From: Lachnospiraceae bacterium MC2017
GTDB lineage: Bacteria > Bacillota > Clostridia > Lachnospirales > Lachnospiraceae
NCBI GenBank assembly: GCA_000701625.1
Contig: JNJK01000029.1
Span: 1-61,442 of the forward strand
Direction of reading: 5' to 3'
DNA length: 61,442 nucleotides
The number at the start of each line of letters is the position of its first letter. The stretch's first letter is position 1. This document shows, in pieces, positions 6,369 to 46,976 of this stretch. Position numbers and translations under genes: made by a program. Below the pieces are notes generated by a model. It searched no databases, was not told where the DNA came from, and saw only the letters and a list, made by a program, of their open reading frames with translations.

Positions 6369-6397
6369 CGTTCCGTTTACGTGTGTACTTTAACACA
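6367..6397. repeat. Dispersed palindromic repeat, short variant
   Basis: AACGTTC-CGTTTACGTGTG and the following TACTTTAACAC resemble the copy at 40885-40918, with a 3-base deletion and two changes. It begins inside the LuxR stop region. Confidence 0.45.
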
Positions 6398-6434
6398 AAA
6401 CCAGTTATTTTTTAGTAATTTTTAAATGTGCTCA

Positions 6435-6490: not shown

Positions 6491-6524
6491 TTACATAAAA
6501 AGTTTATATAAAGGGATTGAACAA

Positions 6525-8516: not shown

Positions 8517-8522
8517 ACAAAG

Positions 8523-8563
8523 AATCCCGAAACTCCAATACTTACCGGAGTTTCGGGATTTTT
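8523..8563. terminator. Terminator after amylosucrase gene
   Basis: AATCCCGAAACTCC pairs perfectly with GGAGTTTCGGGATT around a 10-nt loop, followed by TTTT. It lies between convergent genes and may serve both strands. Confidence 0.85.
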
Positions 8564-8582
8564 CATCTCTCTTTATACATTT

Positions 8583-9332: not shown

Positions 9333-9345
9333 TAAAACCTTACCT

Positions 9346-9804: not shown

Positions 9805-9864
9805 TTCTGATAACTCTCCTTAATTAAACAATTATTTTTATCTGACTAATTTTTCAGATGTAAT

Positions 9865-11016
9865 TTACTCTACTTTCTTACCGCAATTATTGCAGAACTT
9901 ACTTCCAAGAGGAAGCTCCGCTCCGCACTCACATACCTTTGGAACGAGTGACATACCGCACTCATTGCAGAATTTACTTCCTTCATCAACCTGCGCTCCG
10001 CATCCCGGACATGTGATCTTCTTTACTACCATAGGCTTTCCGCAGGTACTGCAGAATTTGCTGCTCACTGGATTCTCCGCTCCGCAGTTCGGACACTTTG
10101 CAGTCTGAGAAACCTGCGCCTGTCCCTGCATACCCATCATAGGATTCGGCATCTGAGCCTGCATTGAATGCATCATTCCTGCTCCCAGACCGATTCCCAT
10201 TCCACCTGCTGCCATAGCCCCTGAAACACCACTTTCGTTACGTGCCGCATCCTGATATACGTCAAAGCTTCTCTTCATGACATAGTTCTTGTCACCCATG
10301 ATATCAAAAGCCGCCTGATCCTCAAGGATCTTATTGACCTTTGCAAAATCTTCATCCGGGAAACTTATGGACTGTACATAGAAGGTTGTCACATCAAGGC
10401 CGTATTTTCCTATCTCCTCTGTGATCTTTTCCTTAACCTTATCAGAAATCTCCTCAAGTCTCGGCTGGATCTCAAGCGCGGAGATCTGATCATTTATGAT
10501 CATTCCGGAAATTATGACCTTAACCTTCTGGATGATAAGACTTCTGTAAAAATCATAGATTTTTTCATAATTTACCGCATCTGACTGCGGCATTGCACCG
10601 ATAAGTTCAGAATAGAATGTCTTGTAATTTGAAAGTTTCATTCCCATCTGACCAAAAGCACGTACGCGAAGCTTTACCTTAAACTTGGGGTCGATTATCT
10701 GCATAGGATCTGCTGTACCCCACGGAATATCAAGCTTTGTAAGCGTATTTAAGAAATAGACCTCCGCCGGAAACGGTGTGGTTCCTCCGAAAGGTATATT
10801 TACGAGACCGCGAAGGATCGGAAGATTATCAGTAGTAAGTGTATACCTCCCCGGCTCAAAAATATCCGCGATCTTTCCGTCTTTCATAAAGATCGCTACC
10901 TGACCCTCTTTAACAGTAAGCTGTGTTCCAAGCACCAGCTGATCTGACGGATGCTTATATACTATCCAGTCACGCGATTTTAAACCATCAAATTTTACAA
11001 CATCAATAATTGCCAT
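9865..11016 (-). CDS. SPFH-domain protein with C-terminal zinc ribbons (YdjI-like)
   Basis: A 383-residue protein. Residues 1-270 form an SPFH/band-7 domain (VVKFDGLKSRDWIVYKHP, then the long helical EIGKYGLDVTTFYVQSISFPDEDF). A Gly/Met/Gln-rich linker follows, then three CxxC-based zinc ribbons (CPNCGAENP, CPGCGAQVD, CECGAELP; each paired with a second CxxCG). The domain order matches the B. subtilis YdjI type, which belongs to an envelope-stress/membrane-repair locus. Nine bases downstream of the coiled-coil gene at 11028, it is almost surely co-transcribed with it. Confidence 0.8.
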   Translation of the reverse strand: MAIIDVVKFDGLKSRDWIVYKHPSDQLVLGTQLTVKEGQVAIFMKDGKIADIFEPGRYTLTTDNLPILRGLVNIPFGGTTPFPAEVYFLNTLTKLDIPWGTADPMQIIDPKFKVKLRVRAFGQMGMKLSNYKTFYSELIGAMPQSDAVNYEKIYDFYRSLIIQKVKVIISGMIINDQISALEIQPRLEEISDKVKEKITEEIGKYGLDVTTFYVQSISFPDEDFAKVNKILEDQAAFDIMGDKNYVMKRSFDVYQDAARNESGVSGAMAAGGMGIGLGAGMMHSMQAQMPNPMMGMQGQAQVSQTAKCPNCGAENPVSSKFCSTCGKPMVVKKITCPGCGAQVDEGSKFCNECGMSLVPKVCECGAELPLGSKFCNNCGKKVE

Positions 11017-11027
11017 AATTTCCCCCG

Positions 11028-11381
11028 TTAGTTAAGCTTGGTTCCGCAAAATGTGCAGAAAGAAGTATCACCGTCAACAGTTGCTCCGCACTCAGGGCAG
11101 ACTTTTGTGGCCTTAAGTCCCCTAAGGCTGTTCTGATCATCTGTGATACGCTCCTGAAGCTTTTTGATGTTATCTACGTAGTACGCGTACTTTTCATCCG
11201 GGGCATCCTTAATCTCTTCGTATACACGCTTACCAAGTTCTTCGCAAAACTTGTCGATTTTTGTCTGATTTGCACGGATCTCATTCTGAAGCCGCATAGT
11301 TTCTGCTGTATCTGCAGCCTTCTTCTTAATATCCTTTCCTGCATTACTGATCTGTCCGCTAAGACTATCCAAAAAACCCAT
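11028..11381 (-). CDS. Small coiled-coil protein with C-terminal zinc ribbon
   Basis: A 117-residue protein. Residues 10-90 are charged and helical (RLQNEIRANQTKIDKF...NIKKLQERITDDQNSLRGL), likely a coiled coil. The C-terminus is a zinc ribbon (CPECGATVDGDTSFCTFCG). It has no signal peptide or membrane span. It precedes the SPFH gene by 11 nt and shares its zinc-ribbon ending, so the two products may interact. No specific function is known to me. Confidence 0.65.
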   Translation of the reverse strand: MGFLDSLSGQISNAGKDIKKKAADTAETMRLQNEIRANQTKIDKFCEELGKRVYEEIKDAPDEKYAYYVDNIKKLQERITDDQNSLRGLKATKVCPECGATVDGDTSFCTFCGTKLN

Positions 11382-14373: not shown

Positions 14374-17300
14374 TTAACGCTTTTTTGCCCTGTTCAGCTC
14401 AACCAGCATGTGATGGCTGGCGATCTTTGACGCAATAAAAGCTGCAACCGTTTCTAATAATCTCCTCGTATCCAATGCCCTGGAAAATTCATAATTATCT
14501 GCCCCAAGGTATCCTATAAGCTTACCATTATCATAAAGAGGAACCGCGATAAGGCGATTAATATACTGACGCTTCAGTGTTTCATATATCAATATATCTA
14601 TGTCTTTTATCGCCTCTACATCCGGAATACTAATACATGTATCATAATTCAAAAGTTCTTCCCAACCCTTATACTCTTCTTTATCAAGGTTTTGAAGTGT
14701 ATCTATTTCTGGTTCCACTCCATCTGCACACCACTCAAATGTATTACTGATATACTTATCATCCTGCTCTAAAATATAAAGTCTGTCAGGGTGAAGCATA
14801 TGACTCAGTTCTTCCAGAACCATATTCATCATATCGTTATATGGCTCATTTGAAATAAGCAGTCGTGCGACACGTATAATACGATCATCCGTCGTAACAT
14901 TTTTACTGATACTCTCCATCTGCTCCAGATCACCATCTATATTCATAAATGCGATCATACAGCAATCAGGAATCGTTGAAGGAGATACCGTAAACTCAGT
15001 CCAGTATCCGGTCTCCCTGCTATATGTCCGGTCATGAAGTTCCCTTTTCTCCATCACAGCCTTATAGCAATACGGTCCCCAGATAGAATCAGCATTCTTG
15101 ATAGCTGATAAAAATGTCTTTCCGATAAGTTCGTTTTCTTCCTTTTTTACGGCCCTACAATACCGTTCATTAACGTATACATATTCTGCATCAATGACTT
15201 TTGTCTTCTCTACATCAAAGATCAGTCTGAACACAACAACAGCTATAGGAAGATTGTAGAAAAGGCTAAGTTCTCTTTGTGATAGCGATTTATTATGCTC
15301 TCTCCTTACTTCAGACATCTCTTCATGCTTTTCAGCAAACTCAAGCCTGCGTCTGGCAACTATCCTGTTCATGTTTTCAACATCTGATGTTTCAGACGCA
15401 AAAACAACACCATGATTAACAGTCAGCCTGACTTTTCGGCCCATCACTTCGGAAATACCCTGTACATCCGCAACTGTATCCTGAATAAGCTTAAGTACAT
15501 AATTATGATCAGATGAATCCGATAAGATAACAAATCTGCTTCTGTCTACCCTGGCTGCCATTTCAGATTTACTCATATGATCACTGATCTTTGCGCCGAC
15601 TATCCTAAGCAATTCATTTGCCACAGACTCATTATTATCCTTTATTATCTTGTCAAACTTCGCTATCTCAAGCTCAGCAACAGCAAAATCATGTTTCTGC
15701 TGATTATAATTCTCATAAAACTTCAGCTCTGTCTCATATGCCGTCTGAACATTCATCAATCCTGAAAGTGTATCTATATGATATTTATCAGGGCTTACTA
15801 TCATCTTATGATACTTAGAATACTCGTCTTCAAAAGCTCCCAGATATCCTACCAGCTTTGCATCTTCATAAACCGGATATTTGCTGGCTATCATCCTGCA
15901 CTCTGTACCATCCTTCTTATGTGAAAGATGAATATTTTTATACCCAAGATCTTTAGGAAATGCCTTTCTTTGTTCTGTCTCATACTGCTGGATAACACCA
16001 TCATTCCAGTCCAGTTCTTCATCATTCTTTCCTATTATCTCGTCAACAGATTTCACACCCTGAAAATCCATGAAAGCCTTATTAGCACCAAGATACCGGT
16101 TATCACTATCTTTCCAGCAATAGCGTATATCGGTATTCTTCATAAGAGCATTCCAGAATGCCAGAAGATTTTCATGCTCGTCGCTGTTCCGATATACAAA
16201 TGAATCTACGGAATCACGAATGAACTGGATTACTACATTTTTCTCTGAATTTGGAAGCAGTAATTCCAGCACTGTTTTCCACTCGTAATTTCCGTCAGCA
16301 TTCATAAACCTGAACTCATCACTAATATAACCCTTACCTGCTGACCTTATTCTATCTGCCATAGTCTTAGGATTGGAAAAATCATGATATCTGTCAAAAT
16401 CATCTCCATGAACAACACGGCTTGCAAAGAAACTCCGGATTTCCTCCAGACCATAAAGCCGTGTGCCAAAATTTGTAAATGAACCTGCTCTCATAAGCTC
16501 TTCTACACAATCTTCGTCCAAATGGAGAATATCCGCAGAATCATATACATACATCAAACTTCTGATATATGTGTCGATAGCATTCTGTCTCTCAGATTCA
16601 GTTTCTATATGCAGATTCTCGAGTTCGAGCTTCAGCATATATTTATTCTGGCTCTGGGCAATAGGTGTCGCAGCCAGGCGCATCCTCTGTCCGCGATCCA
16701 TGTATATAAATACCGTTTCTTCGCCAACCATCTCAACCTGAATGGCATAATTTCTATAGGTCTTTCCCATAGTAGTTCCATGGGCATTCAGATTTGCCTC
16801 TGCCTGGCTTATAGACATGGTTCCCATCGTAGAAAGTGCTTTCTTATACGCTTCATTAGCAAAGTAAAATTTGAAATTCTTTCCATCATCTTCTACCAAT
16901 GCAAGCGCATCATCCGTAATCACATTGACTTTTCCTACCTGGGTAAAGTATCTGCGTTCTTCAGCGGTTTCAACCCTTATCTTACGCTCTGTTATATTTC
17001 GCTTTATATCCTTTGAAAGCATAGGTTTTCCGGCATAGCTTCCCTGTATTTTCTGGCATCCGATATCCTTAAGAAAGATATACTGTTCTTCTGTTTCAAC
17101 TCCCTCAGCCAGCGTTTTTATGCCCAGATCCTTTGCCATCATAATAGTATGACGGATTATAGTCTTTGATCTTTCATTAAAAGTAGAAAGAAACAGCATA
17201 TCAACTTTTATCTCATCAAAGTCAAAGTCCTTCAATATGTTGAGCGATGAAAATCCACTTCCGAAATCATCCATCCATACCTGATAACCAACGCTATGAA

Positions 17301-18648
17301 ATTTTTCAATCTCACTACGAACCTTCTCCGGATTATCCATCAAAGTCGTTTCTGTGATCTCAACTCTGAGATATTCTCTCGGAATATCATACTTTCTGGC
17401 CATCTCTTCAATGGCTTCAAAAGGATTTCCAAGTGAAAAATCCAAACGTGATAAATTAAAAGAAACCGGCACAGCAAATCCACCTTCTTTTAACTCGTCA
17501 CGAAGATCCTTACAAACTTGTTTTACAATAAAGTTATCAAGTTTATGAATGATCTTGCTTTTTTCCAAAACCGGTATAAAATCTGCCGGTGAGATAAATC
17601 CACGTTCGGGATCAAGCCAGCGGCAAAGCGCTTCTTTTCCACACAGATCACCAGTAAGAGTCCGAAGTACTGGCTGATAATAAACCTTTATATGACCTCT
17701 TCTGATGGCATTATCAAGATTTCTTATCAGATAGTTTTCCAGTTCAGTTTTCTGTTCTATTCCCGGATGATACTCACAAAAAAATGACCGTTCATCATTT
17801 TTTATATAATCACTTGCGTATTTTGCCAGATCACATGCTACTGCAGGTGTGATCTCTTCATTTTCGAGATGATAGATTCCCACTTTGAGCCCAACCATTT
17901 CATTGAGCTTTTTCTCTATAAAACGTTCATTTAAGGCTTCTAGTTTCCCTGTTATCTCATCAGTTTCAGCGCAAATAACAAAATGATCATCCGAAAAACG
18001 CGCAATATATTCATCATCAAATGTAGCATGCAGGATTTCTGCAAAGTTTCTAAGGATATTGTCCCCTGCCGCAACACCATAGCGAACATTCAAAGCCTTA
18101 AAATCTGTAAGATTAATATAAGCAAAAGAATACTTCTCCGGCAGCTCACTCCGGCGATTTGCTTCCATCCGCATCGACATATTGCTTAAAAACTGCCTGC
18201 GGCCGAACAATCCTGTAAGCTCATCTGTATCAAATGCAGAATACCGTGCCCTTGCATCAACGATGAATACATAATAAAGAGGGCCCTCATCCGAGTCCTC
18301 AACCTTTCGTCCATATGCTGCTATATACTCTATTTTTCCGTTCTTCGTTCTGATACGGTAATCAACATGATCAAAGTGATCTGACGAAATCTGTATCTGC
18401 TCTGCTATATTTTTTTCAACGTCAGCTGCATCTTTATAGAAAACTGTGCCAGCGAACTTTCCCCCTGTTAATTCCAAAAACTGCTGAAAATCCTCGCATT
18501 CAAATAGATCCAGTAGTGCCTGATTAGCATAGATAAGTTCCTCAGTTTCATCTGCTCTATATATAAAGAAGCCGCCCGGCATCATCGCTATTCCATTTAA
18601 TACATACTTTTCGGCGTGACCGCCTACATCAAACTTCTGCTCTATCAT
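14374..18648 (-). CDS. Multi-PAS/GGDEF/EAL/GAF cyclic-di-GMP phosphodiesterase
   Basis: A 1424-residue cytoplasmic sensor. In rough order: PAS (20-120), GGDEF-like (145-290), EAL (300-555), PAS-like segments to about 960, a second GGDEF-like domain (965-1090), PAS (1110-1225) and GAF (1245-1420). The first GGDEF active site reads ARFSDDHF and the second RVDRSRF, so neither should make c-di-GMP. The EAL domain keeps its key residues: KEALCRW, SFNLSRLD, EITETT, DDFGSGFSS, IKVD, AEGVETEEQ and a final Gln-Gly. It should therefore degrade c-di-GMP, tuned by its sensory modules. No membrane span is visible. A clear GAGGAA site precedes the start. Confidence 0.85.
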   Translation of the reverse strand: MIEQKFDVGGHAEKYVLNGIAMMPGGFFIYRADETEELIYANQALLDLFECEDFQQFLELTGGKFAGTVFYKDAADVEKNIAEQIQISSDHFDHVDYRIRTKNGKIEYIAAYGRKVEDSDEGPLYYVFIVDARARYSAFDTDELTGLFGRRQFLSNMSMRMEANRRSELPEKYSFAYINLTDFKALNVRYGVAAGDNILRNFAEILHATFDDEYIARFSDDHFVICAETDEITGKLEALNERFIEKKLNEMVGLKVGIYHLENEEITPAVACDLAKYASDYIKNDERSFFCEYHPGIEQKTELENYLIRNLDNAIRRGHIKVYYQPVLRTLTGDLCGKEALCRWLDPERGFISPADFIPVLEKSKIIHKLDNFIVKQVCKDLRDELKEGGFAVPVSFNLSRLDFSLGNPFEAIEEMARKYDIPREYLRVEITETTLMDNPEKVRSEIEKFHSVGYQVWMDDFGSGFSSLNILKDFDFDEIKVDMLFLSTFNERSKTIIRHTIMMAKDLGIKTLAEGVETEEQYIFLKDIGCQKIQGSYAGKPMLSKDIKRNITERKIRVETAEERRYFTQVGKVNVITDDALALVEDDGKNFKFYFANEAYKKALSTMGTMSISQAEANLNAHGTTMGKTYRNYAIQVEMVGEETVFIYMDRGQRMRLAATPIAQSQNKYMLKLELENLHIETESERQNAIDTYIRSLMYVYDSADILHLDEDCVEELMRAGSFTNFGTRLYGLEEIRSFFASRVVHGDDFDRYHDFSNPKTMADRIRSAGKGYISDEFRFMNADGNYEWKTVLELLLPNSEKNVVIQFIRDSVDSFVYRNSDEHENLLAFWNALMKNTDIRYCWKDSDNRYLGANKAFMDFQGVKSVDEIIGKNDEELDWNDGVIQQYETEQRKAFPKDLGYKNIHLSHKKDGTECRMIASKYPVYEDAKLVGYLGAFEDEYSKYHKMIVSPDKYHIDTLSGLMNVQTAYETELKFYENYNQQKHDFAVAELEIAKFDKIIKDNNESVANELLRIVGAKISDHMSKSEMAARVDRSRFVILSDSSDHNYVLKLIQDTVADVQGISEVMGRKVRLTVNHGVVFASETSDVENMNRIVARRRLEFAEKHEEMSEVRREHNKSLSQRELSLFYNLPIAVVVFRLIFDVEKTKVIDAEYVYVNERYCRAVKKEENELIGKTFLSAIKNADSIWGPYCYKAVMEKRELHDRTYSRETGYWTEFTVSPSTIPDCCMIAFMNIDGDLEQMESISKNVTTDDRIIRVARLLISNEPYNDMMNMVLEELSHMLHPDRLYILEQDDKYISNTFEWCADGVEPEIDTLQNLDKEEYKGWEELLNYDTCISIPDVEAIKDIDILIYETLKRQYINRLIAVPLYDNGKLIGYLGADNYEFSRALDTRRLLETVAAFIASKIASHHMLVELNRAKKR

Positions 18649-22288: not shown

Positions 22289-22552
22289 TCATGAAACAGC
22301 TTTCCCTGTAAGAAAACTTTCGATTCCTGCGATAGCAATTTCTTCATCTGCACCATCAGCAATGACAGTAAGTTCCTGTCCTTCACTGAAATTAAGAGCC
22401 ATCATCCCCATGATGCTCTTTGCGTTCGCATTGCTTGTACCTGACTGAATGTGGATACCACTGTCATAACGACATGCAACCTGTACGAGTTCCGCAATAG
22501 GTGTCGCAGATATTTTCCTAACTGCCTCTACAATAATCTTTCTGCTTTTCAA
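22289..22552 (-). CDS. crh: Crh-like HPr paralogue lacking the catalytic His
   Basis: An 87-residue HPr-fold protein. Starting at TTG 22552 (AGAGGGA upstream) puts residues in exact HPr register: position 15, the PEP-phosphorylated His of HPr, is Ser (KISATPIAEL), while Ser46, the HPr-kinase target, is kept in AKSIMGMMAL. This is the logic of Crh, which cannot carry sugar phosphate but, when phosphorylated on Ser46, acts as a CcpA partner in carbon catabolite control. Gene symbol is by analogy. It forms its own unit, divergent from the MFS gene and ended by a terminator. Confidence 0.75.
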   Translation of the reverse strand: MKSRKIIVEAVRKISATPIAELVQVACRYDSGIHIQSGTSNANAKSIMGMMALNFSEGQELTVIADGADEEIAIAGIESFLTGKAVS

Positions 22553-22591
22553 CTTATCCCTCTTCTTTCTGCAAAAACAACATACAATCAC

Positions 22592-22819: not shown

Positions 22820-24028
22820 ATGAAGGAAAAAAACTCAAGTTTCTTAAAAACAAACGACCTCGCGATCCTGCTTTTATTCTCAATTTTCATGAATGGATTT
22901 GAATCCGGAGGATATCAGGCAGCTCTGATCTACATCGGTCAGGCATATTCTCTGGACACGAAAGCTCAGGGAATAATGGCCTCTGTCGAACTATTTGCTA
23001 CAATGATCGCTCCTCTGCTTCTTGGTACACTTGCAGACAAAATAGGTAAAAAAATCGTACTGGTATTTTTTACCGTACTCCGGGCAGTTGCATGTATGAT
23101 AATTCTTATCGCAACAGGATCCATTCTTTTTGCAATTGGTATCTTTGCTCTCGGATTTGCTACCAGCATCATCCAGTATGTCGCGATCGCCCAGATGATC
23201 GACGGTTATCCTCAGAGCAACCATAAACGTATGGGACTTATCGCAGCAATGTACGCTCTCGGAGCAGTTATTGCGCCCCTTATAGTTGGTAATGCCGTAA
23301 AGACAGAGGCCGGTTGGAAAGCCTTCTTTGCTGTCGATGTAGCACTTTCCTTAGCACTGTCCGTCCTTCTCTTAATTACGTCATTTAAGCCGCGTGAAGC
23401 TGTCTCAGTCAATGCCGATCTTTCAGCAGATGAGACGTTTGTTCCCAGCCATCCAAAAGAAGGTATCTACGTTTATGGTGTGGTATTACTCAGTTTGATA
23501 ATGTTCATTTATGTCGGCGTAGAAAACGGTGTAGGATTTTTCATCACCGGATTTATGGAAGATACAATGAATTCTATGAACGGATATCTGGCACTATCAT
23601 TATTCTGGATGGCAATGATACCCTCCAGAGTACTTTGCGGTATCTTCTCAAAATATAGACGTGCACTTCTGGTCGCGGCTCCAACCGGTGCAACCATTAG
23701 CCTTGCGCTCTTTGCTCTTCTCCGCTCAGAAAACCTGGCTTTTGTTATCGTAACGATCCTCGGATTCTTCTGCGGAGCAGTATATCCAAATGTCCTGACC
23801 TACGCTGCAGATTTTTCCGGACGAAAAACTGCCACCGTGACTGCAATAATCACAGTGGCAACAGGTGTCGGTGCAACAGTTGTATCCGCATCGGTCGGCT
23901 TCCTTCAGGCAGCTTTCAGCTTTACTGGCGCCTTTCTTATATTGGCTGCCATACTGGCACTTGATATTGTCTTTGCATTGATGGTTATCAAATGTGCCGG
24001 AACCGAAGTATCAAAAAAACTTATTTAA
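22820..24028 (+). CDS. Major facilitator superfamily transporter
   Basis: A 402-residue membrane protein with about 12 hydrophobic helices. The loop between helices 2 and 3 reads GTLADKIGKKIV, the MFS signature. A central polar loop near residue 200 separates two six-helix halves. The family moves small solutes by proton coupling; the cargo is not evident. Its 3' end overlaps that of the convergent EAL gene by 18 bp, so the two messages are antisense at their ends. Confidence 0.85.
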   Translation: MKEKNSSFLKTNDLAILLLFSIFMNGFESGGYQAALIYIGQAYSLDTKAQGIMASVELFATMIAPLLLGTLADKIGKKIVLVFFTVLRAVACMIILIATGSILFAIGIFALGFATSIIQYVAIAQMIDGYPQSNHKRMGLIAAMYALGAVIAPLIVGNAVKTEAGWKAFFAVDVALSLALSVLLLITSFKPREAVSVNADLSADETFVPSHPKEGIYVYGVVLLSLIMFIYVGVENGVGFFITGFMEDTMNSMNGYLALSLFWMAMIPSRVLCGIFSKYRRALLVAAPTGATISLALFALLRSENLAFVIVTILGFFCGAVYPNVLTYAADFSGRKTATVTAIITVATGVGATVVSASVGFLQAAFSFTGAFLILAAILALDIVFALMVIKCAGTEVSKKLI

Positions 24029-26104
24029 TTCGATCATGTAACCATTTTTATCTTTAGCAACGATCTTGTACGTAAAATTATAATACTTTCCATTAGTCAA
24101 ACCGGATATTTCCTCTTCTTTTCCGGATTTAATGGCTTTTTTCACGAGGCGGACAAAAATCTCTCTCTCCGTTGACTCCGGATCATTCAGGATCTCGTCT
24201 ACCGCCTCGTGGTTTTTTATGCCGTCACGAGTTAACATTTTTACAAACTCATCACTCATAAAGTATGTCTTAAAATATTTCTTATCATAGTAAATAAATG
24301 CTATCATTCTTCCAATAACATCGATCAGGCCAATTTCGTTAAAAAATGCTCTCTCATCAAAATTTTCTCCAACCAGCTCGTTCTTCCTTAAATGTTCCTC
24401 CATGTCTTTAAGTTCTGAAGGTCTGCCATAATAATATCCCTGAACCATCTCACATCCGGATTTCCTTAAGAACTCAAGCTGTTCTTCTGTTTCTACGCCT
24501 TCCATAAGTGTATGTATCCCGAGACTTTTAGCCATAGAAATAACCGGCCGAAGTATCTTCTTCGTCCTTTCACTAAATTTTCTCATGAATCCCATGTCGA
24601 TTTTTATTTCGTCAAATTCAAAATCAAGAAGTGTATTAAGCGATGAATAACCACTCCCAAAATCATCCATAAGCACTTCCATTCCCGCATCATGAAATCT
24701 TCTAACAGCATTTCTGGTTCCTTCGGGATCTGCCATAACAGTTGACTCGGTAATCTCAACCCGGAAATACTCCGGATCAAGGCCACTGTCGAGGATCATA
24801 TTTGGAATTAATGTTGATAGATCCCCTGTTTGAAAATCTGTTCTTGAAAGGTTAAATGAGACCGGTATTATATCCCGTCCATCCGCCTCATATCGTTTCA
24901 TGGTCTTGATTATCTGCTGTACGACGTAGATATCCAGTTTATGCGTTAAATTTGTTTCTTCCAGGATCGGTACAAAAACCATCGGAGACAATAAACCATA
25001 TGCCGGATCAGCCCAACGCGCCAGAGCCTCAAACCCATACACTTTCCCATCTAAAAGTCGTATCTGCGGTTGATAATATATTTTTATCAGTCCTTCATCT
25101 ATTACTCTGTCAATGTTGTTTACGATATAATCCCTGTCGCTGTAAGCCTTACCCAGATCATGATCGTACCAGGTACATAAAGAATCATATGTAGTTCTGT
25201 CAGAATCACATGCAGTACGGGCGCGGTCGCACGCAGAACTTATATCATTAACTTTTTCTTCATCATTCGGATTATATACATATACTCCGGCTCTTACGGT
25301 CAATGACCTGCCGTTATTTGCCTTACGCATATCGTCAAAAATGTCTTCTATTTCTTCTTCCAGTCGCTCTGCATCCGCCACTGCATAGAAATGATCTTCC
25401 CCAAATCTGGCGCTGTGCTCATTGCCAAAATGCATACGAAGAATATCTGCAAATGCGATAAGAACCCTGTTCCCTTCTTCCAGTCCAAACTTAATATTGA
25501 ACATCCGCAGACCATTAAGATTGAATGAAATAACAGCCGGTGTCTTATTCGATATGATAAGGGCTTCTTTTTCTACTCTCGCAGAGTTTAAGAAATTAGA
25601 CATATTAGGAAGACCTGTAAGCTCGTCATAATAATTATTAAGGAAAAACATATCCCTCAGATGAGGAGCCGAATGCTTTTTAACAAAATCATTCGTCCTG
25701 ACATAATCCGCCGTTTCATGATAGGATCCCTCATACATGTAATAAACAACAGAAAGGCAGGTTCCATCCTTTGTATACATATTTTGTCCGCGCGAATGGA
25801 TCACATGATATTTTCCGTCACGTGCAGATTTTGTTCTATAGACAGCATCATATATCCCGCCTTCTCTCACAAACTTATCTGCTTCCGACATCACCCTGTC
25901 TTTATCGTCAGGATGAGTATCCCTATACATATCCTCATTCATCAGCTTCTCCGCAGCCTCTCTCGTACAACTGCAAAGCGTACAGAAACCATCAGAAATA
26001 AGGACCACCACAACCTGATGATCCAGATACTGATATATTACAAAAGGCACTGTAGACCTTTCTAATTGGTTTTTTTCAGCCTCAGGAAATGCGTATAGAT
26101 CCAT
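24011..26104 (-). CDS. PAS/GGDEF/EAL cyclic-di-GMP phosphodiesterase
   Basis: A 697-residue soluble protein: PAS-like sensor (30-150), GGDEF-like domain (170-300) with a degenerate RFGEDHF site, EAL domain (315-565) and a C-terminal ~120-residue sensor-like end. The EAL residues are intact: FEALARW, SFNLSRTD, EITEST, DDFGSGYSS, IKID, MEGVETEEQ and VQGYYY. It should hydrolyse c-di-GMP. It closely resembles the first half of the 1424-residue protein at 14374-18648 and looks like a paralogue. GGAAGGA precedes the start. Confidence 0.85.
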   Translation of the reverse strand: MDLYAFPEAEKNQLERSTVPFVIYQYLDHQVVVVLISDGFCTLCSCTREAAEKLMNEDMYRDTHPDDKDRVMSEADKFVREGGIYDAVYRTKSARDGKYHVIHSRGQNMYTKDGTCLSVVYYMYEGSYHETADYVRTNDFVKKHSAPHLRDMFFLNNYYDELTGLPNMSNFLNSARVEKEALIISNKTPAVISFNLNGLRMFNIKFGLEEGNRVLIAFADILRMHFGNEHSARFGEDHFYAVADAERLEEEIEDIFDDMRKANNGRSLTVRAGVYVYNPNDEEKVNDISSACDRARTACDSDRTTYDSLCTWYDHDLGKAYSDRDYIVNNIDRVIDEGLIKIYYQPQIRLLDGKVYGFEALARWADPAYGLLSPMVFVPILEETNLTHKLDIYVVQQIIKTMKRYEADGRDIIPVSFNLSRTDFQTGDLSTLIPNMILDSGLDPEYFRVEITESTVMADPEGTRNAVRRFHDAGMEVLMDDFGSGYSSLNTLLDFEFDEIKIDMGFMRKFSERTKKILRPVISMAKSLGIHTLMEGVETEEQLEFLRKSGCEMVQGYYYGRPSELKDMEEHLRKNELVGENFDERAFFNEIGLIDVIGRMIAFIYYDKKYFKTYFMSDEFVKMLTRDGIKNHEAVDEILNDPESTEREIFVRLVKKAIKSGKEEEISGLTNGKYYNFTYKIVAKDKNGYMIELNKFF

Positions 26105-27405: not shown

Positions 27406-28704
27406 TTATTTTACTTCTGCCTGTCCAAACGGAATTGATTCATTAAAGTTACGTGAATTTTCCATTGTTACAGCTGCGATCGCCTGAAGAGCCTCTCTTG
27501 TAAAGAAAGCCTGATGTGATGTTAGTATCAGGTTAGGGAACGTTGTCAGTCTGGCAACAATATCGTTTGTAAGTCTGTCCTCAGAACGGTCAGTATATAC
27601 ATTCGTATCTTCACCCTCATATACATCCAAAGCTACTGCATGGAACTTTCCATCTTTAAGAGCACTAATAAGAGCCTCTACATCAATGAGTCCGCCTCGG
27701 GATGTATTAACCAGCATTACATTATCCTTCATCATACCAATTGTCTCAGCATTGATAAGATGATGTGTACCGCCCTCTCCCATGATAAGCGGCGCATGAA
27801 GAGAGATCAGATCAGACTGGGCTAAAAGCTCTTCCTTGCTTACATATGTGAGCAGTCCATCCTCTTCAAGCTTTTTATTAGGAAACGCATCCCATCCAAG
27901 AACAGTCATTCCATAGCCCTTGCAGATCTTTGCCATACATACTCCGATACGACCGGTTCCCATAATACCTGCAACCTTATTATGCAGATCTATTCCGAGG
28001 AGTCCTGACAGAGCGAAGTTATTATCACGAACCTTATTATATGCTTTGTGGATTCTTCTGTTCGCAGCCTGAATGATAGTCATGGCATGTTCAGCAACTG
28101 CATACGGTGAGTATGCAGGTACGCGAAGAACCGTCATTCCATATTCCTGTGCAGCCTTATGATCGACATTATTAAATCCTGCACATCTTAAAAGAATAAG
28201 TTTTACTCCGCACTTATTAAGAATCTCTATTACCGGACGTGATGCATCATCATTTACAAAAATACAAACCGCATCATATCCCTGCGCCAGAGAAGCTGTT
28301 TCCTCTGTAAGACGGCTGCTGAAATACTTGATATCAACATTATAAGCACCATCTCCGCGATCTTTACTAAGCTTGCTAAAGAATATGCGATCATAATCTT
28401 TCGTACCAAAAAATGCGATTTTGAGTATTTCTGCCTTTTTATTTTTCGGAGCCTCTTCCTGAATAACTTCAAGGATCTTCTCGGAAGCAGCCTCCTCATC
28501 ATCTCCATCAACTGTCACGTGCAGCGTCATCCCCTTTGCAGAGGCAAGCCCAAGTATCTGAAGTACATCTTTCGCATCAGCAGTATGATCATCCGTTGAA
28601 ATCGTTACAACACTTTTAAATGCAGTACACGCCTGTGCAAGAAGAGCTGCAGGTCTTGCATGAATTCCCATAGGATTTTTTACAACGTAATCAAACTTTT
28701 TCAT
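27406..28704 (-). CDS. HPr domain fused to D-lactate-type 2-hydroxyacid dehydrogenase
   Basis: A single 432-residue frame. Residues 1-85 are an HPr domain in exact HPr register, with the phosphorylatable His15 in GIHARPAALLAQ. Position 46, normally the regulatory Ser, is Asp (AKDVLQILGL). Residues ~92-430 form a full NAD-linked D-2-hydroxyacid dehydrogenase of the D-LDH group: GTGRIGVCMAKI nucleotide loop, NTSRGGLID with the substrate Arg, DVYEGED with the catalytic Glu and SHQAFF with the catalytic His. It should reduce pyruvate or a similar 2-oxoacid. The fused HPr suggests direct control of the enzyme by the PTS phosphorylation state. No frameshift or internal start suggests two genes. Confidence 0.88.
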   Translation of the reverse strand: MKKFDYVVKNPMGIHARPAALLAQACTAFKSVVTISTDDHTADAKDVLQILGLASAKGMTLHVTVDGDDEEAASEKILEVIQEEAPKNKKAEILKIAFFGTKDYDRIFFSKLSKDRGDGAYNVDIKYFSSRLTEETASLAQGYDAVCIFVNDDASRPVIEILNKCGVKLILLRCAGFNNVDHKAAQEYGMTVLRVPAYSPYAVAEHAMTIIQAANRRIHKAYNKVRDNNFALSGLLGIDLHNKVAGIMGTGRIGVCMAKICKGYGMTVLGWDAFPNKKLEEDGLLTYVSKEELLAQSDLISLHAPLIMGEGGTHHLINAETIGMMKDNVMLVNTSRGGLIDVEALISALKDGKFHAVALDVYEGEDTNVYTDRSEDRLTNDIVARLTTFPNLILTSHQAFFTREALQAIAAVTMENSRNFNESIPFGQAEVK

Positions 28705-29081
28705 ATCTTACTTCGCCTTTCTTTTTCCTGGCATTTTTTTGTATGCCTATTATACTCGCAGGATTTATAAGTTTCACCAATCATTAAATATTTAACAATC
28801 TTTTGATTTTTCAAGTGTCGCACCCTCTTGATTATATCGGATACGATTTAATTAAAATACAGTGTTACTTTTATGCTATTCGTCACCAGGCAGTAATATC
28901 CTGTTGTTAATTAGCTTTATCCGGATAATGATAACTCCTAAATATACGTCATTTATTACAAAAATATGTCACACCACCATTCACACGAACATTTTTTTGC
29001 ATCATTGTCGTTCAGCTTCCTGTCATATTTTCCGATATTAAATTATGACAGGATTTAATATCTACACGGAGGAATCTCACC
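28705..29081. other. Intergenic region with inverted CTGTCATA repeat
   Basis: This 377-bp divergent gap has no credible coding frame. CTGTCATA (29020-29027) and TATGACAG (29044-29051) are inverted and separated by 16 bp; the same octamers abut in the palindrome at 3909-3922. The motif TATCGGATA occurs at 28835-28843. It should hold promoters for the dehydrogenase (left) and the ion-channel pair (right). Confidence 0.4.
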
Positions 29082-41103: not shown

Positions 41104-42564
41104 ATGAATCTTGAAAATCAGAAAAAGGCGCCGATCTATGATGCCTTAGAGCGCTTTCGTAAATTGCATGTCGTTCCTTTTGATGTGCCGGGACACAAAA
41201 GAGGACGCGGAAATCCGGAACTGGTAAATTTCCTTGGGCAGCAATGTGTAGGGATCGATGTTAATTCCATGAAACCTCTGGACAACCTGTGTCATCCGGT
41301 TTCTATCATCAAAGAAGCCGAAGAACTGGCAGCAGATGCATTTGGAGCTGCACATTCTTTCCTTATGGTTGGAGGAACCACCTCAGCCGTGCAGGCCATG
41401 GTTCTGTCTGCATGTAAGGCCGGTGATAAGATCATCCTTCCTCGAAATGTGCATAAAAGCGCTATTAATGCACTTGTACTCTGCGGCGCTACTCCGGTTT
41501 ACATTGATCCAAAAGTAGATACCGAACTTGGTATTCCCCTCGGAATGGAAGTTGCGGATGTTAAAAAGGCAATGGAAGAAAACCCCGATGCCAAGGCAGT
41601 TCTCATAAATAATCCTACTTACTACGGAATCTGCTCTGACCTCAGAACTATCGTAAAAATGGCTCATGATCATCACATGCTTGCACTCGTTGATGAAGCT
41701 CATGGAACACACTTTTACTTTAGTGATGAGCTCCCCTGTTCTGCCATGGAAGCAGGGGCAGATATGGCGTCCATTTCCATGCATAAATCAGGAGGAAGTC
41801 TCACCCAGAGTTCCTTATTACTCCTCGGACCTCAGATGAATCCAGGATATGTAGGACAGATAATCAATCTCACACAGACTACGAGCGCTTCCTATCTACT
41901 GATGGCGAGTCTCGATCTCTCCCGCAGAAATCTTGCTTTACGTGGAAAAGAATCATTTGAAAAAGTTGCCCGCATGGCTGAGTATGCACGAGAAGAGATA
42001 AACGCGATCGGCGGGTACTATGCCTACGGAAAAGAACTTATAAACGGCGGAAGTGTTTATGACTTTGATGTAACGAAGCTTGCTGTTCTGACTCACAGGA
42101 TCGGCCTTGCCGGCATTGAAGTATATGATCTCCTTCGTGACGAGTATGATATTCAGATGGAGTTTGGAGATATTAGCAATATCCTTGCATATATTTCGAT
42201 CGGTGATTCTATTCAGGATATAGAACGTCTGGTAGGGGCACTGGCTGATATTTACAGATTATATTCAAAGCCGGAGAAAAAGCTTTTTTCTGCAGAATAT
42301 ATCTCACCCACAGTCGTTACGACTCCACAGACTGCATTTTATGCGGATAAAGAATCGCTTCCGATAATGGAATGTGCGGGCCGTGTCTGTGCAGAATCAG
42401 TCATGTGCTACCCTCCGGGAATACCGATCCTCGCCCCCGGAGAAGTGATAACCCGTGACATCATAGAGTACATCCGCTTTGCCCAGGAAAAAGGCTGCTC
42501 TATGCAGGGACCTGAGAGCGATGATATCTCACGCCTCAATGTACTGAAGAAAGGAACCTACTAA
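41104..42564 (+). CDS. speA: Arginine decarboxylase (PLP, Orn/Lys/Arg family)
   Basis: A 486-residue PLP enzyme of the short fold-I decarboxylase type. The PLP lysine is in SMHKSGGSLTQSS; VPFDVPGHKRGRGN and DEAHGTHF are family blocks. By fold alone it could act on ornithine, lysine or arginine. The operon also encodes agmatine deiminase and N-carbamoylputrescine amidase, so arginine to agmatine is the best call. It is the first of six tightly spaced genes. Ribosome site GAGAGGAAA precedes the ATG. Confidence 0.87.
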   Translation: MNLENQKKAPIYDALERFRKLHVVPFDVPGHKRGRGNPELVNFLGQQCVGIDVNSMKPLDNLCHPVSIIKEAEELAADAFGAAHSFLMVGGTTSAVQAMVLSACKAGDKIILPRNVHKSAINALVLCGATPVYIDPKVDTELGIPLGMEVADVKKAMEENPDAKAVLINNPTYYGICSDLRTIVKMAHDHHMLALVDEAHGTHFYFSDELPCSAMEAGADMASISMHKSGGSLTQSSLLLLGPQMNPGYVGQIINLTQTTSASYLLMASLDLSRRNLALRGKESFEKVARMAEYAREEINAIGGYYAYGKELINGGSVYDFDVTKLAVLTHRIGLAGIEVYDLLRDEYDIQMEFGDISNILAYISIGDSIQDIERLVGALADIYRLYSKPEKKLFSAEYISPTVVTTPQTAFYADKESLPIMECAGRVCAESVMCYPPGIPILAPGEVITRDIIEYIRFAQEKGCSMQGPESDDISRLNVLKKGTY

Positions 42565-42565
42565 A

Positions 42566-43426
42566 ATGGAATTCTGGTTTGAAGAATTACACACGAACAA
42601 TGTAAAGATGTCTATTCGTGTAGATAAACAGCTTTTCTCACGTGAAAGTGAATATCAGAGAATTGATGTTTTTCAATCACCGGAATTTGGACGCTTTCTC
42701 TGTTCTAACGGAAGCGTGATCTTTTCTGAAGCAGATGAGTTCGTTTATGACGAAATGATCGTTCACGTACCGATGGCAGTTCATCCCGGTGTAAAAAAAG
42801 TGCTGGTGATCGGCGGCGGAGACGGCGGTGTTGCGCGTGAGCTTTCATATTACGATGAAATAGAAGAAATTGACGTCGTTGAAGAAGACCAGCTTTTTAT
42901 CGACGTTTGTAAAGAATGGTTTCCGGACAATGCCTGCGGTCTGGATGATCCCAGAGTAAAGATCTACAACGAAAATGGTCTTCGTTTCCTAAGATCACGA
43001 CACGACCAGTATGATCTCATAATAAACGACTGTACCGATCCACTCGGACATACGGCAGGCATGTTTACTAAGGAATTTTACGGAAATTGTTTCCGTGCCC
43101 TTCATGATGACGGGATCATGGTCTATCAGCATGGAAGTCCCTTCTTTGACGAAGACGAAGATTCCTGCAGAGCGATGCACCGGAAGGCTTATCGAAGCTT
43201 CCCGATAAATCGTGTTTATCAGGCTCATATCCCGACATGCCCGGCAGGATACTGGTTATTTGGCTTTGCCAGCAAGAAATATCATCCGTTAAAGGATTTT
43301 GACCGTCAGCGATGGAATGACAGAAATATAAAAACATGGTATTACACAACACATCTTCATTGCGGCTCGTTTATGCTGCCGCGTTATGTTGAAGATCTTT
43401 TACGTGAGGAGGAAAACAAGTCATGA
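42566..43426 (+). CDS. speE: Spermidine synthase (aminopropyltransferase)
   Basis: A 286-residue enzyme of usual length. The decarboxy-SAM pocket shows VIGGGDGGVARELSYY, the following acidic EEIDVVEED, and the catalytic NDCTDPLGH. It transfers an aminopropyl group to putrescine. One base separates it from speA. Its donor, decarboxylated SAM, needs SpeD, which is not in the window, while the two genes that follow give a donor-independent route to spermidine. Confidence 0.9.
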   Translation: MEFWFEELHTNNVKMSIRVDKQLFSRESEYQRIDVFQSPEFGRFLCSNGSVIFSEADEFVYDEMIVHVPMAVHPGVKKVLVIGGGDGGVARELSYYDEIEEIDVVEEDQLFIDVCKEWFPDNACGLDDPRVKIYNENGLRFLRSRHDQYDLIINDCTDPLGHTAGMFTKEFYGNCFRALHDDGIMVYQHGSPFFDEDEDSCRAMHRKAYRSFPINRVYQAHIPTCPAGYWLFGFASKKYHPLKDFDRQRWNDRNIKTWYYTTHLHCGSFMLPRYVEDLLREEENKS

Positions 43427-44682
43427 GCAGAGTTTTAGTTATAGGATGCGGTGGTGTAGCACAGGTTGCTATCCAGAAGTGCTGTCAGAACAGTGCTGTT
43501 TTTAAGGAATTATGCATTGCAAGCCGCACTAAGTCAAAGTGTGATGATCTCAAGAATAAGCTTGAGGGAAAGACATCTACCATCGTAACAACTGCCCAGG
43601 TTGATGCTGATAATGTAGAAGAAGTTAAGACTCTCATAAATTCCTATAAGCCGGATGTCGTACTTAACGTGGCTCTTCCTTATCAGGATCTGACAATTAT
43701 GGATGCTTGTCTCGCATGCGGTGTTCATTATGTTGATACAGCTAATTATGAGCCTGAGGACACCGATGATCCGGAGTGGAGAAAGATCTACGAAAAGAGA
43801 TGTAAAGATTTAGGCTTTTCTGCTTACTTCGATTATTCATGGCAGTGGGCATATGATCAGAAATTTAAGGATGCAGGCCTCACAGCACTCCTCGGAACAG
43901 GATTTGATCCCGGCGTTACAAGCGTATTTTCTGCATATGCATTAAAGCACTATTTTGATGAGATCCACACCATCGACATTCTTGACTGCAATGGCGGAGA
44001 TCACGGATATCCTTTTGCTACTAATTTCAATCCGGAAGTAAATTTGAGAGAAGTGAGTGCTCCGGGAAGCTATTGGGAAGATGGACACTGGATAGAAGTA
44101 CCGGCAATGTCCATTAAGCGCGAGTATGATTTCCCGCAGGTTGGCAAAAAGGATATGTATCTCCTGCACCACGAGGAGATCGAGGCACTTGCAAAGAATA
44201 TCCCTGGTGTAAAGAGGATCCGTTTCTTCATGACCTTTGGTCAGAGCTATCTTACACACATGAAGTGCCTTGAAAATGTAGGCATGCTCTCTACAACTCC
44301 GATCAATTTCAATGGCCATGAGATCGTACCTATCCAGTTCTTAAAGGCTCTTCTTCCGGATCCGGCATCACTCGGACCGAGAACTGTCGGAAAAACAAAT
44401 ATCGGATGTATCTTTACCGGAATTAAGGACGGAAAAGAAAAGACCATCTGCATTTACAATGTTTGTGATCATCAGGAGTGCTACAAAGAACTCGGAAGCC
44501 AGGCGATCAGCTATACAACAGGCGTTCCGGCAATGATCGGTACTGCACTTGTTGCAAATGGCATTTGGAATAAGAGAGGTACTCTCACAACTGATGAGTT
44601 CGATCCCGATCCGTACATGGAAATGCTGACAGAATTTGGTCTGCCATGGATCGTTGACGAAAATCCTGCAACAGTGGAATAA
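43423..44682 (+). CDS. Carboxynorspermidine/carboxyspermidine synthase
   Basis: A 419-residue saccharopine-dehydrogenase-like enzyme. The NAD(P) loop is RVLVIGCGGVAQVAIQKC. Placed before nspC, it matches carboxy(nor)spermidine dehydrogenase, which reductively joins aspartate semialdehyde and putrescine to give carboxyspermidine. Its ATG overlaps the speE stop by 4 nt, so translation is coupled. The lysC gene at 34375 supplies the pathway leading to aspartate semialdehyde. Confidence 0.88.
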   Translation: MSRVLVIGCGGVAQVAIQKCCQNSAVFKELCIASRTKSKCDDLKNKLEGKTSTIVTTAQVDADNVEEVKTLINSYKPDVVLNVALPYQDLTIMDACLACGVHYVDTANYEPEDTDDPEWRKIYEKRCKDLGFSAYFDYSWQWAYDQKFKDAGLTALLGTGFDPGVTSVFSAYALKHYFDEIHTIDILDCNGGDHGYPFATNFNPEVNLREVSAPGSYWEDGHWIEVPAMSIKREYDFPQVGKKDMYLLHHEEIEALAKNIPGVKRIRFFMTFGQSYLTHMKCLENVGMLSTTPINFNGHEIVPIQFLKALLPDPASLGPRTVGKTNIGCIFTGIKDGKEKTICIYNVCDHQECYKELGSQAISYTTGVPAMIGTALVANGIWNKRGTLTTDEFDPDPYMEMLTEFGLPWIVDENPATVE

Positions 44683-44694
44683 AGGAAAAACAAA

Positions 44695-45822
44695 TTGAAA
44701 GATACTGAACTTAAAACACCTGTGTATCTTGTGGATGAAAAAAGGATCAGGGACAACCTTGAAATACTGCATACCGTAGAGGAAAGAACCGGATGTCATA
44801 TCCTTCTTGCTCAAAAAGCCTTCTCTATGTTTAGTATTTATCCTTTAATCTCTAAATATATTTCCGGTGCGACGGCCAGCGGTCTTTACGAAGCGCGACT
44901 TGCTCACGAAAAAATGCAGGGTGAAAATCATGTTTTTTGCCCTGCCTATACAGAAAGTGAGCTGTGCGAGATATGTGAAATATGTGATCATATCAGCTTT
45001 AATTCGCTGCGTCAGCTGGAACTGCATCGATCTATTTGGGAAAAGTCCGAAGCAAGTGTCGGAATCCGCATCAATCCCGAATATTCAACGCAGGAAGGTC
45101 ATGAGATATATGATCCCTGTTCACCGGGCTCACGTTTGGGGATAAGAAGAAAGGATCTTCCTGAGCATCTTCCTAAGGGTGTTGAGGGGATACATTTTCA
45201 CACACTTTGTGAACAGGATGCCGAACCATTGGCACGGACGGTTGCCTCAGTTGAGGAAAATTTTAGCACGTACTTAAAAGAAGCCAGGTGGGTAAATCTG
45301 GGAGGAGGACATCATATAACCAAACCCGGATATGACATTTCTCTTCTTGAAAAGACGATCCTCCATTTAAGAAAAACATATGACGTTGAAGTATATCTGG
45401 AACCCGGAGAGGCAATAGCACTGAACGCCGGATATCTCTATACAAAGGTAATGGATATAGTTGAAAGCGATATGCCGATCCTGATCCTCGATGCATCAGC
45501 AGCATGTCATATGCCTGATGTTTTGGAAATGCCATATCACCCACCACTTCGAAACAGCGGACTTCCGCGCGAGAAAGCAGTTACCTGCCGACTCGCATCC
45601 AGAACCTGTCTTGCAGGAGATGTTATAGGGGAATATAGCTTTGACAGGATACCTGAAATAGGCGAAACTCTCATATTTGAGGACATGGCAATTTATTCCA
45701 TGGTTAAGAATAATACCTTTAACGGCATGCCTTTACCTGATATAGCATTGATGCATGAAAACGGTGAATGTGAAGTAATAAGAAGCTTTGGATATGATGA
45801 CTTCAAAAACCGATTGTCATGA
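44695..45822 (+). CDS. nspC: Carboxynorspermidine/carboxyspermidine decarboxylase
   Basis: A 375-residue fold-III PLP decarboxylase. The PLP lysine is in LLAQKAFSMF, with EGIHFHTLCEQ and LEPGEA as later conserved blocks. It removes CO2 from carboxyspermidine, giving spermidine. The start is TTG at 44695, with AAGGA 8 nt before; no ATG is well placed. It follows the dehydrogenase by 12 nt. Confidence 0.9.
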   Translation: MKDTELKTPVYLVDEKRIRDNLEILHTVEERTGCHILLAQKAFSMFSIYPLISKYISGATASGLYEARLAHEKMQGENHVFCPAYTESELCEICEICDHISFNSLRQLELHRSIWEKSEASVGIRINPEYSTQEGHEIYDPCSPGSRLGIRRKDLPEHLPKGVEGIHFHTLCEQDAEPLARTVASVEENFSTYLKEARWVNLGGGHHITKPGYDISLLEKTILHLRKTYDVEVYLEPGEAIALNAGYLYTKVMDIVESDMPILILDASAACHMPDVLEMPYHPPLRNSGLPREKAVTCRLASRTCLAGDVIGEYSFDRIPEIGETLIFEDMAIYSMVKNNTFNGMPLPDIALMHENGECEVIRSFGYDDFKNRLS

Positions 45823-45857
45823 CAACGTTAATGAATTGTTAAAATGAAAGCAAAAAA

Positions 45858-46976
45858 ATGATCATACATAATCAGAATCCGTCTTCTGACGGCTACTATA
45901 TGCCGGCAGAGTATGCCCCTCATGCAGGCACTCTCTTAATATGGCCTACACGTCCCGGAAGTTGGGGAAAAGATCCTGCAAAAGCACAAAAAGCTTTTGT
46001 AAAGATTGCTGAAGCACTGGCTCCGCACGAAAAAGTCTATTTTCTTGCGGATAGCGAGCACGTAGAGGAAGCTAAGTCTTCTCTCGGAAAAAATGCAGAA
46101 GTACTTGCGATTCCTACTAACGATGCCTGGGCGAGAGATGTGGGTCCAACGTTTGTCACAAACGGACATGATATACGAGGTATAAACTGGAAATTTAATG
46201 CCTGGGGCGGAAATGTTGATGGTCTTTACGCAGACTGGGAAAAAGATGATGCTGCGGCAGTCTCTTTTTGTGACGCAGTAAAAAAAGATATTTACGACTT
46301 TAGTGACTTCGTATTAGAAGGCGGCTCCATTCATTCCGACGGTGAAGGAACCCTGCTCGTTACCGAAGCCTGTCTCCTGAGCGCAGGACGTAATCCCGAA
46401 CTCTCCCTGGAACAAATAGAAAAGAAGCTTTGTGACGCGCTGGGTGTAAAAAAAGTATTGTGGCTTCCCTACGGCATATATAATGACGAGACAAATGAAC
46501 ACGTTGATAACGTATGTGCTTTTATAGGTCCCGCCGAAGTCGTACTTGCCTGGACCGATGACGAATCTGACCCTCAATACGCAATGTCAAAGGCAGATTA
46601 TGACTATTTGTCATGCGTTACTGATGCAAAGGGCAGAACTATCACGATACATAAGCTTCCTATCCCGGATAAACCAGTTCTTATCAGTGAAGAAGATCTT
46701 GCCAAATATGAGTTTGAAGAGGGTGAAGACGTCAGAGACACCGGCGAACGGCTGGCAGCCAGTTACGTTAATTTTTACTTCGGTAATGAAATCGCTTTAA
46801 TCCCTCAATTTGGTGGAGAAAACCTATCAAGTGATAAGCGAGCTCTGGATATCATGAGAAAACTCTGCCCTGATAGAGAAGTAATAGGGATTGATTCAAG
46901 AGAGATCCTGCTTGGCGGCGGAAATATACACTGCATCACGCAGCAGATCCCGAAACGGAAAGGAAATACGCAATGA
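45858..46976 (+). CDS. aguA: Agmatine deiminase
   Basis: A 372-residue enzyme of the guanidino-modifying fold. It opens [22 protein letters not shown] and ends with the catalytic Cys in [27 protein letters not shown] supplies substrate contacts. It converts agmatine to N-carbamoylputrescine and ammonia. The ribosome site is weak (GAAAG), so it may depend on upstream translation. Confidence 0.93.

Follow-up and report, generated by a model that had tools for sequence, protein, structure and literature searches.

An HPr domain joined to a D-lactate dehydrogenase in Lachnospiraceae bacterium MC2017 and its relatives: a putative link between sugar uptake and fermentation

Architecture and distribution of the fusion

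The stretch of DNA analysed here (the window, 61,442 nucleotides of contig JNJK01000029.1 from Lachnospiraceae bacterium MC2017) contains, on its reverse strand, an open reading frame (ORF; 27406-28704 (-)) that starts with ATG, has no internal stop and encodes a protein of 432 amino acids, in which HPr, a protein of the sugar phosphotransferase system (PTS), is followed by a D-lactate dehydrogenase (D-LDH). The first-pass annotation had described a single frame joining a complete HPr domain to a D-2-hydroxyacid dehydrogenase, and this is borne out by the intact ORF, by the Pfam domains and by 47 distinct relatives. From the comparisons below, the fusion is, on balance, probably a fermentative D-LDH wired to the PTS. 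The positions of its parts are collected in Table 1.

Pfam recognises PTS-HPr (PF00381) at residues 3-82, with 83.9 bits against a cut-off of 23, as well as PF00389 (122-422) and PF02826 (210-399), both over their cut-offs, and TIGR01003, the NCBIfam model of the HPr family, scores 77.5 bits (cut-off 47.9). The dehydrogenase models of NCBIfam gave many matches, all of those listed (25 of 30 families) staying below their own cut-offs; the same holds for the D-LDH models among the matches listed. Since HPr and two 2-hydroxyacid dehydrogenase domains are the only domains over cut-off, the protein differs in composition from MTP and FPr, where HPr is joined to Enzyme I (EI) or IIA domains. When aligned without gaps to the solved HPrs 3le1 and 1fu0, His15 and Arg17 match, and Asp46 of the window protein stands opposite their Ser46. 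The best D-LDH match in the Protein Data Bank (PDB) has an E value of 2.6e-95, and, among solved structures, the LDH part comes closest to the D-LDHs 5z21, 3wx0/5z1z, 4cuj and 5z20 (Fusobacterium nucleatum, E. coli, Salmonella, Pseudomonas aeruginosa). The 50 best rows of a Foldseek search with the AlphaFold model of the fusion (pLDDT 84.6, pTM 0.75), a model that was not used for domain arrangement, were all dehydrogenases. The LDH part is predicted to be a D-LDH dependent on nicotinamide adenine dinucleotide (NAD), with pyruvate as the putative substrate.

Within the genus, full-length matches were found in 5 of 48 genomes, source genome included, at 84-100% identity, and a stand-alone D-LDH of about 50% identity in 12 of the 48; no genome has both. 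At the level of the family, 174 of 397 genomes match at E 1e-60 and, among the matches listed, at least 13 genomes carry the fusion, with a match that covers at least residues 1-430. Of 398 genomes drawn from across the phylum, three contained it, namely the source genome and two of one other family. As for named records, 38 of 40 loci span the whole query, the remaining two being cut by contig ends, and the carriers include Mitsuokella multacida, M. jalaludinii, Sharpea azabuensis, S. porci and the Lachnospiraceae bacteria NK4A144, KH1P17, KH1T2 and AC2012. Once duplicates are removed, 47 distinct full-length proteins of at least 61% identity share the architecture. In alignment A1 (40 proteins), dehydrogenase profiles match all 40 and HPr matches 32, which is the number of fusions entered.

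A search for the same domain order in relatives had been suggested from the start, as its absence would have indicated an assembly error; the fusion was found in the genus, the family and isolates, and its recurrence in genus, family and named records rules out that error. It is, consequently, hardly conceivable that the fusion is an assembly artefact or a chance read-through, as 47 distinct proteins, named isolates and a genome of only two contigs (G350) carry it, and nothing was found that favours such an error. The idea of a trait of Lachnospiraceae stands only in part, since the fusion is present there but also in Selenomonadaceae, in Sharpea and in an Erysipelotrichaceae record. Regarding mobile carriage, nothing above 60% identity appeared among the matches listed (5 of 2772 plasmid and 5 of 62 phage records).

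Table 1. Parts of the fusion gene and the promoter-like site upstream of it (positions in the window)
Feature	Position	Strand	Basis
HPr-D-LDH fusion gene, 432 amino acids and stop	27406..28704	-	ORF, Pfam domains, full-length relatives
HPr domain, residues 1-84	28453..28704	-	PF00381 at 3-82; TIGR01003; PDB HPr alignment
Linker, residues 85-93	28426..28452	-	Weak conservation; mean pLDDT 67 over residues 81-90
D-LDH part, residues 94-432	27409..28425	-	PF00389 and PF02826; closest solved relatives are D-LDHs
His15 codon (CAT), PTS phosphorylation site	28660..28662	-	His in 47/47 fusions
Asp46 codon (GAT), Ser46 position of HPr	28567..28569	-	Aligned to Ser46 of solved HPrs
Catalytic Arg336 codon	27697..27699	-	Arg in 47/47
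Catalytic Glu365 codon	27610..27612	-	Glu in 46/47, Gln in L103
Catalytic His397 codon	27514..27516	-	His in 46/47, gap in L102
Promoter-like site GTGAAA-17-TATAAT, about 45 bases before the ATG	28749..28777	-	10/12 matches

Phosphorylation sites of the fused HPr and its free paralogues

The fused HPr resembles other members of PF00381 in length, in its His15, Arg17 and Pro18 and in its alignment to solved HPrs, but differs from them in being joined to a metabolic enzyme, in the absence of Ser46 in 46 of the 47 fusions and in forming its own tree group. The retention of His15 that had been noted in the window protein extends to all 47 fusions, and so does the combination of His15 and Arg17 that is typical of the HPr family. 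In fact, Gly13, His15, Ala16, Arg17 and Pro18 are identical in every fusion, while only 9 of the 84 HPr columns are invariant (mean pairwise identity 0.57), which argues that selection holds the phosphorylation site. For comparison, the linker (columns 85-94) has no invariant column among its 10 (mean pairwise identity 0.43), and the LDH part has 119 of 330 (0.79).

This pattern bears on the possibility that the domain is structural, an add-on for oligomerisation or stability with no role in phosphorylation. The HPr fold can lose its role, since the fusion-bearing set of genomes also has HPr-type domains without His15 (9 of the 34 free HPrs sampled), and tetramers have been described for the D-LDHs of E. 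coli, F. nucleatum and P. aeruginosa (PMC4230899); a structural domain, however, would not need His15, Arg17 and Pro18 in all fusions while much of the rest drifts, and we regard this explanation as improbable.

The residue at position 46 is Asn in 40 of the 47 fusions, Asp in 5, Glu in 1 and Ser in 1, the acidic residues being confined to one part of the LDH tree (the window group, L071 and L072), beside the Asn-bearing L113 and L073. The Asp that the first-pass annotation had pointed out is therefore present in the window protein but atypical, and, across the sequences compared, loss of Ser46 is general in fusions, with Asp as a lineage variant. Of the two meanings that had been offered for this Asp, a permanent mimic of phosphorylated Ser does not agree with these counts, and Asn46 in 40 of the 47 rules it out as a general design. 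The second meaning, removal of the input from HPr kinase, fits better, and two fusion-bearing genomes of Mitsuokella have no match to that kinase. Similarly, it is very improbable that HPr kinase controls the fusion with Asp46 (or Ser46) as the operative site and the window protein as a locked mimic of P-Ser-HPr. Although the window protein does have Asp46 and its genome encodes HPr kinase, the prevalence of Asn, the single Ser and the absence of a PF07475 match from both Mitsuokella genomes tested speak against such control. Additionally, the fused HPr is not of the Crh type, because Crh lacks His15 and has Ser46, the reverse of what is found here.

The source genome has ten PF00381 matches, nine of them over the cut-off, so that the fusion is not the cell's only HPr. 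Both of its free HPrs that adjoin EI genes (C2:242279-242518 and C28:16136-16375; L001 and L003) combine His15 with Lys46; these are likely the main PTS carriers and are also without the HPr kinase site, so the loss of Ser46 is not special to the fusion. Two further HPrs of this genome have both His15 and Ser46, and three have Ser46 without His15, one of the latter at a distance of roughly 4 kb from the gene for HPr kinase. Among 34 free HPrs sampled from 20 genomes, which are a minority of the HPr matches, 25 have His15 (with Ser46 in 11 and Lys, Arg or Ala in 14) and 9 lack it, all of these with Ser46. The two inputs thus seem to be often split between paralogues, and by its residues the fused HPr belongs to the class with His15 only.

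In an unrooted HPr tree, 46 fused HPrs and two operon-adjacent ones are separated from the 34 free HPrs by a branch with support 99/90; the fused HPrs alone have 82/84, in an alignment of 85 columns that leaves many forks open. Several residues of the fused type are rare among the 25 free HPrs with His15, namely A20, A23, Q24, C26, V47, L51 and A55, the window protein having Ser at position 55.

The window encodes two other HPr-like sequences. The first (22289-22591, -) is an HPr-type protein (PF00381, 77 bits) with no His15 and with Ser46 in a canonical context (NAKSIMGMM), which is predicted to be Crh-like and to receive input from HPr kinase only; its structure, predicted alone, gave an unusable model (pLDDT 37). 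The second (54399-54569, -) is a degenerate stretch of 24.4 bits with no His15 motif and with a Ser46-like GKSLLGVMS motif.

The dehydrogenase part and the origin of the fusion

The window protein has the catalytic Arg, Glu and His of D-LDHs, which are kept in 47, 46 and 46 of the 47 fusions; the roles of Arg336, Glu365 and His397 are assigned from what we take to be their equivalents in D-LDH numbering, Arg235, Glu264 and His296. The D-LDHs of E. coli (LdhA), F. nucleatum and P. aeruginosa are full-length homologues of the LDH part (41-47% identity in the structure search) and likewise have these three residues in place, but the HPr domain precedes the enzyme only in the fusion. These D-LDHs have been characterised as allosteric tetramers, enhanced by fructose 1,6-bisphosphate (FBP) and Mg in two of the three species, and are stated to have no additional domain (PMC4230899). 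A regulatory domain is, by contrast, described in the related D-3-phosphoglycerate dehydrogenases, D-2-hydroxyacid dehydrogenases with ACT/ASB domains (PMC4230899). Those domains bind serine, whereas the N-terminal HPr of the fusion would read PTS phosphorylation. The ACT domain also occupies a different position.

Most carriers probably have the fusion as their main NAD-linked LDH, because few of the fusion genomes tested have another strong LDH match. In the source genome, the best L-LDH match has 20 bits and the next D-LDH-like match 76 bits (32% identity), and an L-LDH match above 200 bits was found in 3 of 16 family fusion genomes tested, with a broken partial match in one more. A separate LDH product from an internal start is also unlikely in most fusions, as codon 94, where a free LDH would start, is never ATG, and none of the 12 CTG or TTG codons at that position has a Shine-Dalgarno (SD)-like motif; at the start of the fusion itself, by a loose pattern, such a motif is present in all 47.

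In the LDH tree, which includes 26 of 44 fusion LDHs and is limited to rows above 40% identity, the fusions group together (100/99), and they do so again (99) in a tree made by a quick method with all 44. Sequences of Sharpea and of the Mitsuokella type stand among those of Lachnospiraceae with moderate support (89/79 and 93/80), a placement that suggests transfer between lineages.

Two genomes of one genus (G077 and G394) carry an HPr gene of the fused group immediately before a separate, co-directional LDH gene; at these loci (L050 and L051), the two genes are in tandem, about 80-105 bases apart, and the HPr has kept His15 and has Gln at position 46. An HPr gene lies beside LDH only in these two genomes among 79 non-fused LDH loci, for which about 170 to 2130 upstream bases were scanned; several of the loci are two copies of one place, and L106, a fusion cut by a contig end, was set aside. 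A shared neighbourhood of HPr and LDH genes followed by their fusion would be the simplest story for its origin, which the trees do not prove.

A possible coupling of sugar import to lactate formation

EI was found in all 25 genomes tested, and the permease family PTS_EIIC in 23, the two without it being G002 and G043, which belong to the genus and have a stand-alone LDH; Enzyme I and a PTS permease occur together in each of the 20 fusion genomes tested. HPr kinase is present in 21 of the 25, the exceptions being G015, G077 and both Mitsuokella genomes. EIIC was present in 5/5 fusion and 2/12 stand-alone-LDH genomes of the genus (Fisher 0.0034) and, in the family, in 13/13 fusion, 104/159 stand-alone (Fisher 0.010), 2/2 split and 273/397 genomes overall; as the counts include incomplete genomes and the tests are not corrected for kinship, the association with the fusion is suggestive only. 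Nevertheless, with the fusion conserved, His15 in all 47 and EI and PTS permeases present, an input from the PTS through His15 is plausible.

Our proposal is that the N-terminal HPr would be a dedicated paralogue that kept the His15 site and dropped the Ser46 input. Enzyme I would phosphorylate His15 from phosphoenolpyruvate (PEP), and PTS sugar import would drain the phosphate to EIIA, leaving the HPr domain mostly unphosphorylated, so that its phosphate level would track both the PEP/pyruvate ratio and PTS flux. The state of the domain would then alter the activity or the assembly of the tethered LDH, for which a conformational route would exist because allosteric tetramers are known among the relatives of this part. 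The most likely sign would be an LDH that is active while the domain carries no phosphate, with sugar flowing and pyruvate high, and damped once the domain is phosphorylated, at a high PEP/pyruvate ratio. This sign is proposed because dephospho-HPr has been reported to act on Vibrio PykA (PMC5987630) and HPr to act directly on E. coli PykF and PfkB (PMC8167557). The logic would be the same, HPr acting at the glycolytic end, but free HPr binds in those reports (PMC8167557, PMC5987630), whereas the fusion has a covalent link and concerns lactate formation.

According to another explanation, HPr would mainly tether LDH to Enzyme I, the docked LDH taking the pyruvate that EI releases, one for each phosphoryl group, and HPr the phosphate. 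His15, Arg17 and residues 47, 48 and 51 are kept, the last three being among those that we take to form the EI-facing side, and both the presence of EI in every genome tested and the PTS association agree with docking. Encounters between HPr and EI are, however, weak and brief, which disfavours stable channelling, and further pyruvate comes from glycolysis elsewhere, so that we consider docking and substrate relay unlikely. A bolder form, in which the fusion is a dual-product acceptor of EI whose HPr domain takes the phosphoryl group and whose tethered LDH takes the pyruvate, is slightly less likely still; if true, each PTS sugar imported would be matched locally by one NADH re-oxidised in making D-lactate, and a single complex would unite sugar import, phosphate relay and redox balance.

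Several observations weigh against a PTS-wired LDH. The EIIC association was seen among related genomes and with one permease family only; moreover, EIIC also occurs in 104 of the 159 stand-alone-LDH genomes of the family and in 14 of 31 genus genomes with neither LDH, so bacteria can live with a PTS and lack the fusion. Free HPrs were present in all 15 fusion genomes scanned, and PTS transport therefore does not need the fusion. An internal start is less unlikely in a few fusions, since codon 93 is TTG in one fusion and GTG in another, and an SD-like motif lies within 24 bases of it in 3 of the 47. In two metagenome-assembled genomes (MAGs), catalytic residues are affected: L103 has Gln for Glu365, and L102 has an in-frame gap of about 30 residues that spans His397; these variants may be errors or regulatory-only forms. 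Finally, the HPr of the split pair has Cys for Pro18, and the trees disagree on this pair, its HPr joining the fused HPrs and its LDH joining the stand-alone L052 (96/97).

The genes around the fusion are informative about another proposal, namely that it is an extra phosphocarrier for one EIIA, with LDH carried along or regulated by co-expression only. Such a role would be compatible with the intact phosphorylation site and with the known fusions of HPr to EI and IIA domains (PMC2405797). Against it, each of the 15 fusion genomes scanned has free HPrs, which in the source genome adjoin both EI genes, and no PTS gene or other neighbour is widely shared among the 14 largest ORF clusters of 39 loci. 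Within these clusters, only the fusion itself is found in 39/39 loci (several of which have short flanks), there is no conserved operon partner across all 39, and apparent neighbours reach 13 loci at most, mainly in close relatives. Clusters 2 (33 loci) and 4 (13 loci) were discarded as neighbours, as they lie over the fusion or reach from it in other frames and were taken, by their coordinates, for shadow ORFs. An extra phosphocarrier is thus decidedly improbable.

Larger proteins that include HPr are already known, such as MTPs, FPr and the HPr fusions linked to dihydroxyacetone kinase. In these, however, the partners are PTS domains (EI, IIA), as described in PMC2405797, whereas the HPr studied here is joined to a fermentation enzyme; the main text of PMC2405797 never uses the word dehydrogenase. 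Targeted literature searches returned no published description of an HPr-LDH fusion among the matches listed, in agreement with the first-pass annotation, which knew of none. The architecture is presumably visible in domain databases. What appears to be new is the covalent link between the two known parts.

Several bacteria of gut and rumen carry the fusion, and acidosis is influenced by the lactate that such bacteria form. If the fusion is a PTS-wired LDH, sugar import may act directly on the final step of fermentation: the covalent link would be a direct wire from import to end product, and HPr, besides being a free messenger, would serve a metabolic enzyme as a regulatory domain of its own. 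Lactate formation in the rumen has also been linked to methane yield, which is the theme of PMC5069950. There, reads from the rumen of low-methane sheep mapped to Sharpea azabuensis DSM20406 with high expression of PTS genes and of a D-LDH gene, although the 12-fold rise of D-LDH equals the general rise in reads mapped to this genome, from 937 to 11372 RPM (PMC5069950). Since the fusion is the only close D-LDH match in S. azabuensis DSM 18934 (684 bits; the next has 92 bits and 33% identity), the D-LDH gene expressed in PMC5069950 may well be the fusion, with the reservation that the strains differ (DSM20406 and DSM 18934).

Regarding expression signals, the region of the promoter-like site in Table 1 has 6 such sites, compared with a mean of 7.0 in shuffled sequences, and is not enriched. 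No CcpA cre-like site lies between the gene start and 29387; with up to one mismatch, the entire window gives 17 matches, which is not above chance.

Elsewhere in the window, two large signalling proteins are encoded on the reverse strand, one with PAS, GGDEF and EAL domains (24011-26104) and one that is similar to it by eye (14374-18648). On the forward strand, a run of genes (41104-47848) resembles by eye a polyamine pathway, with putative arginine/lysine decarboxylase, spermidine synthase, carboxynorspermidine dehydrogenase and decarboxylase, agmatine deiminase and N-carbamoylputrescine amidase. Another fermentation gene, acetate kinase (PF00871), is found at 49858-51156 (-).
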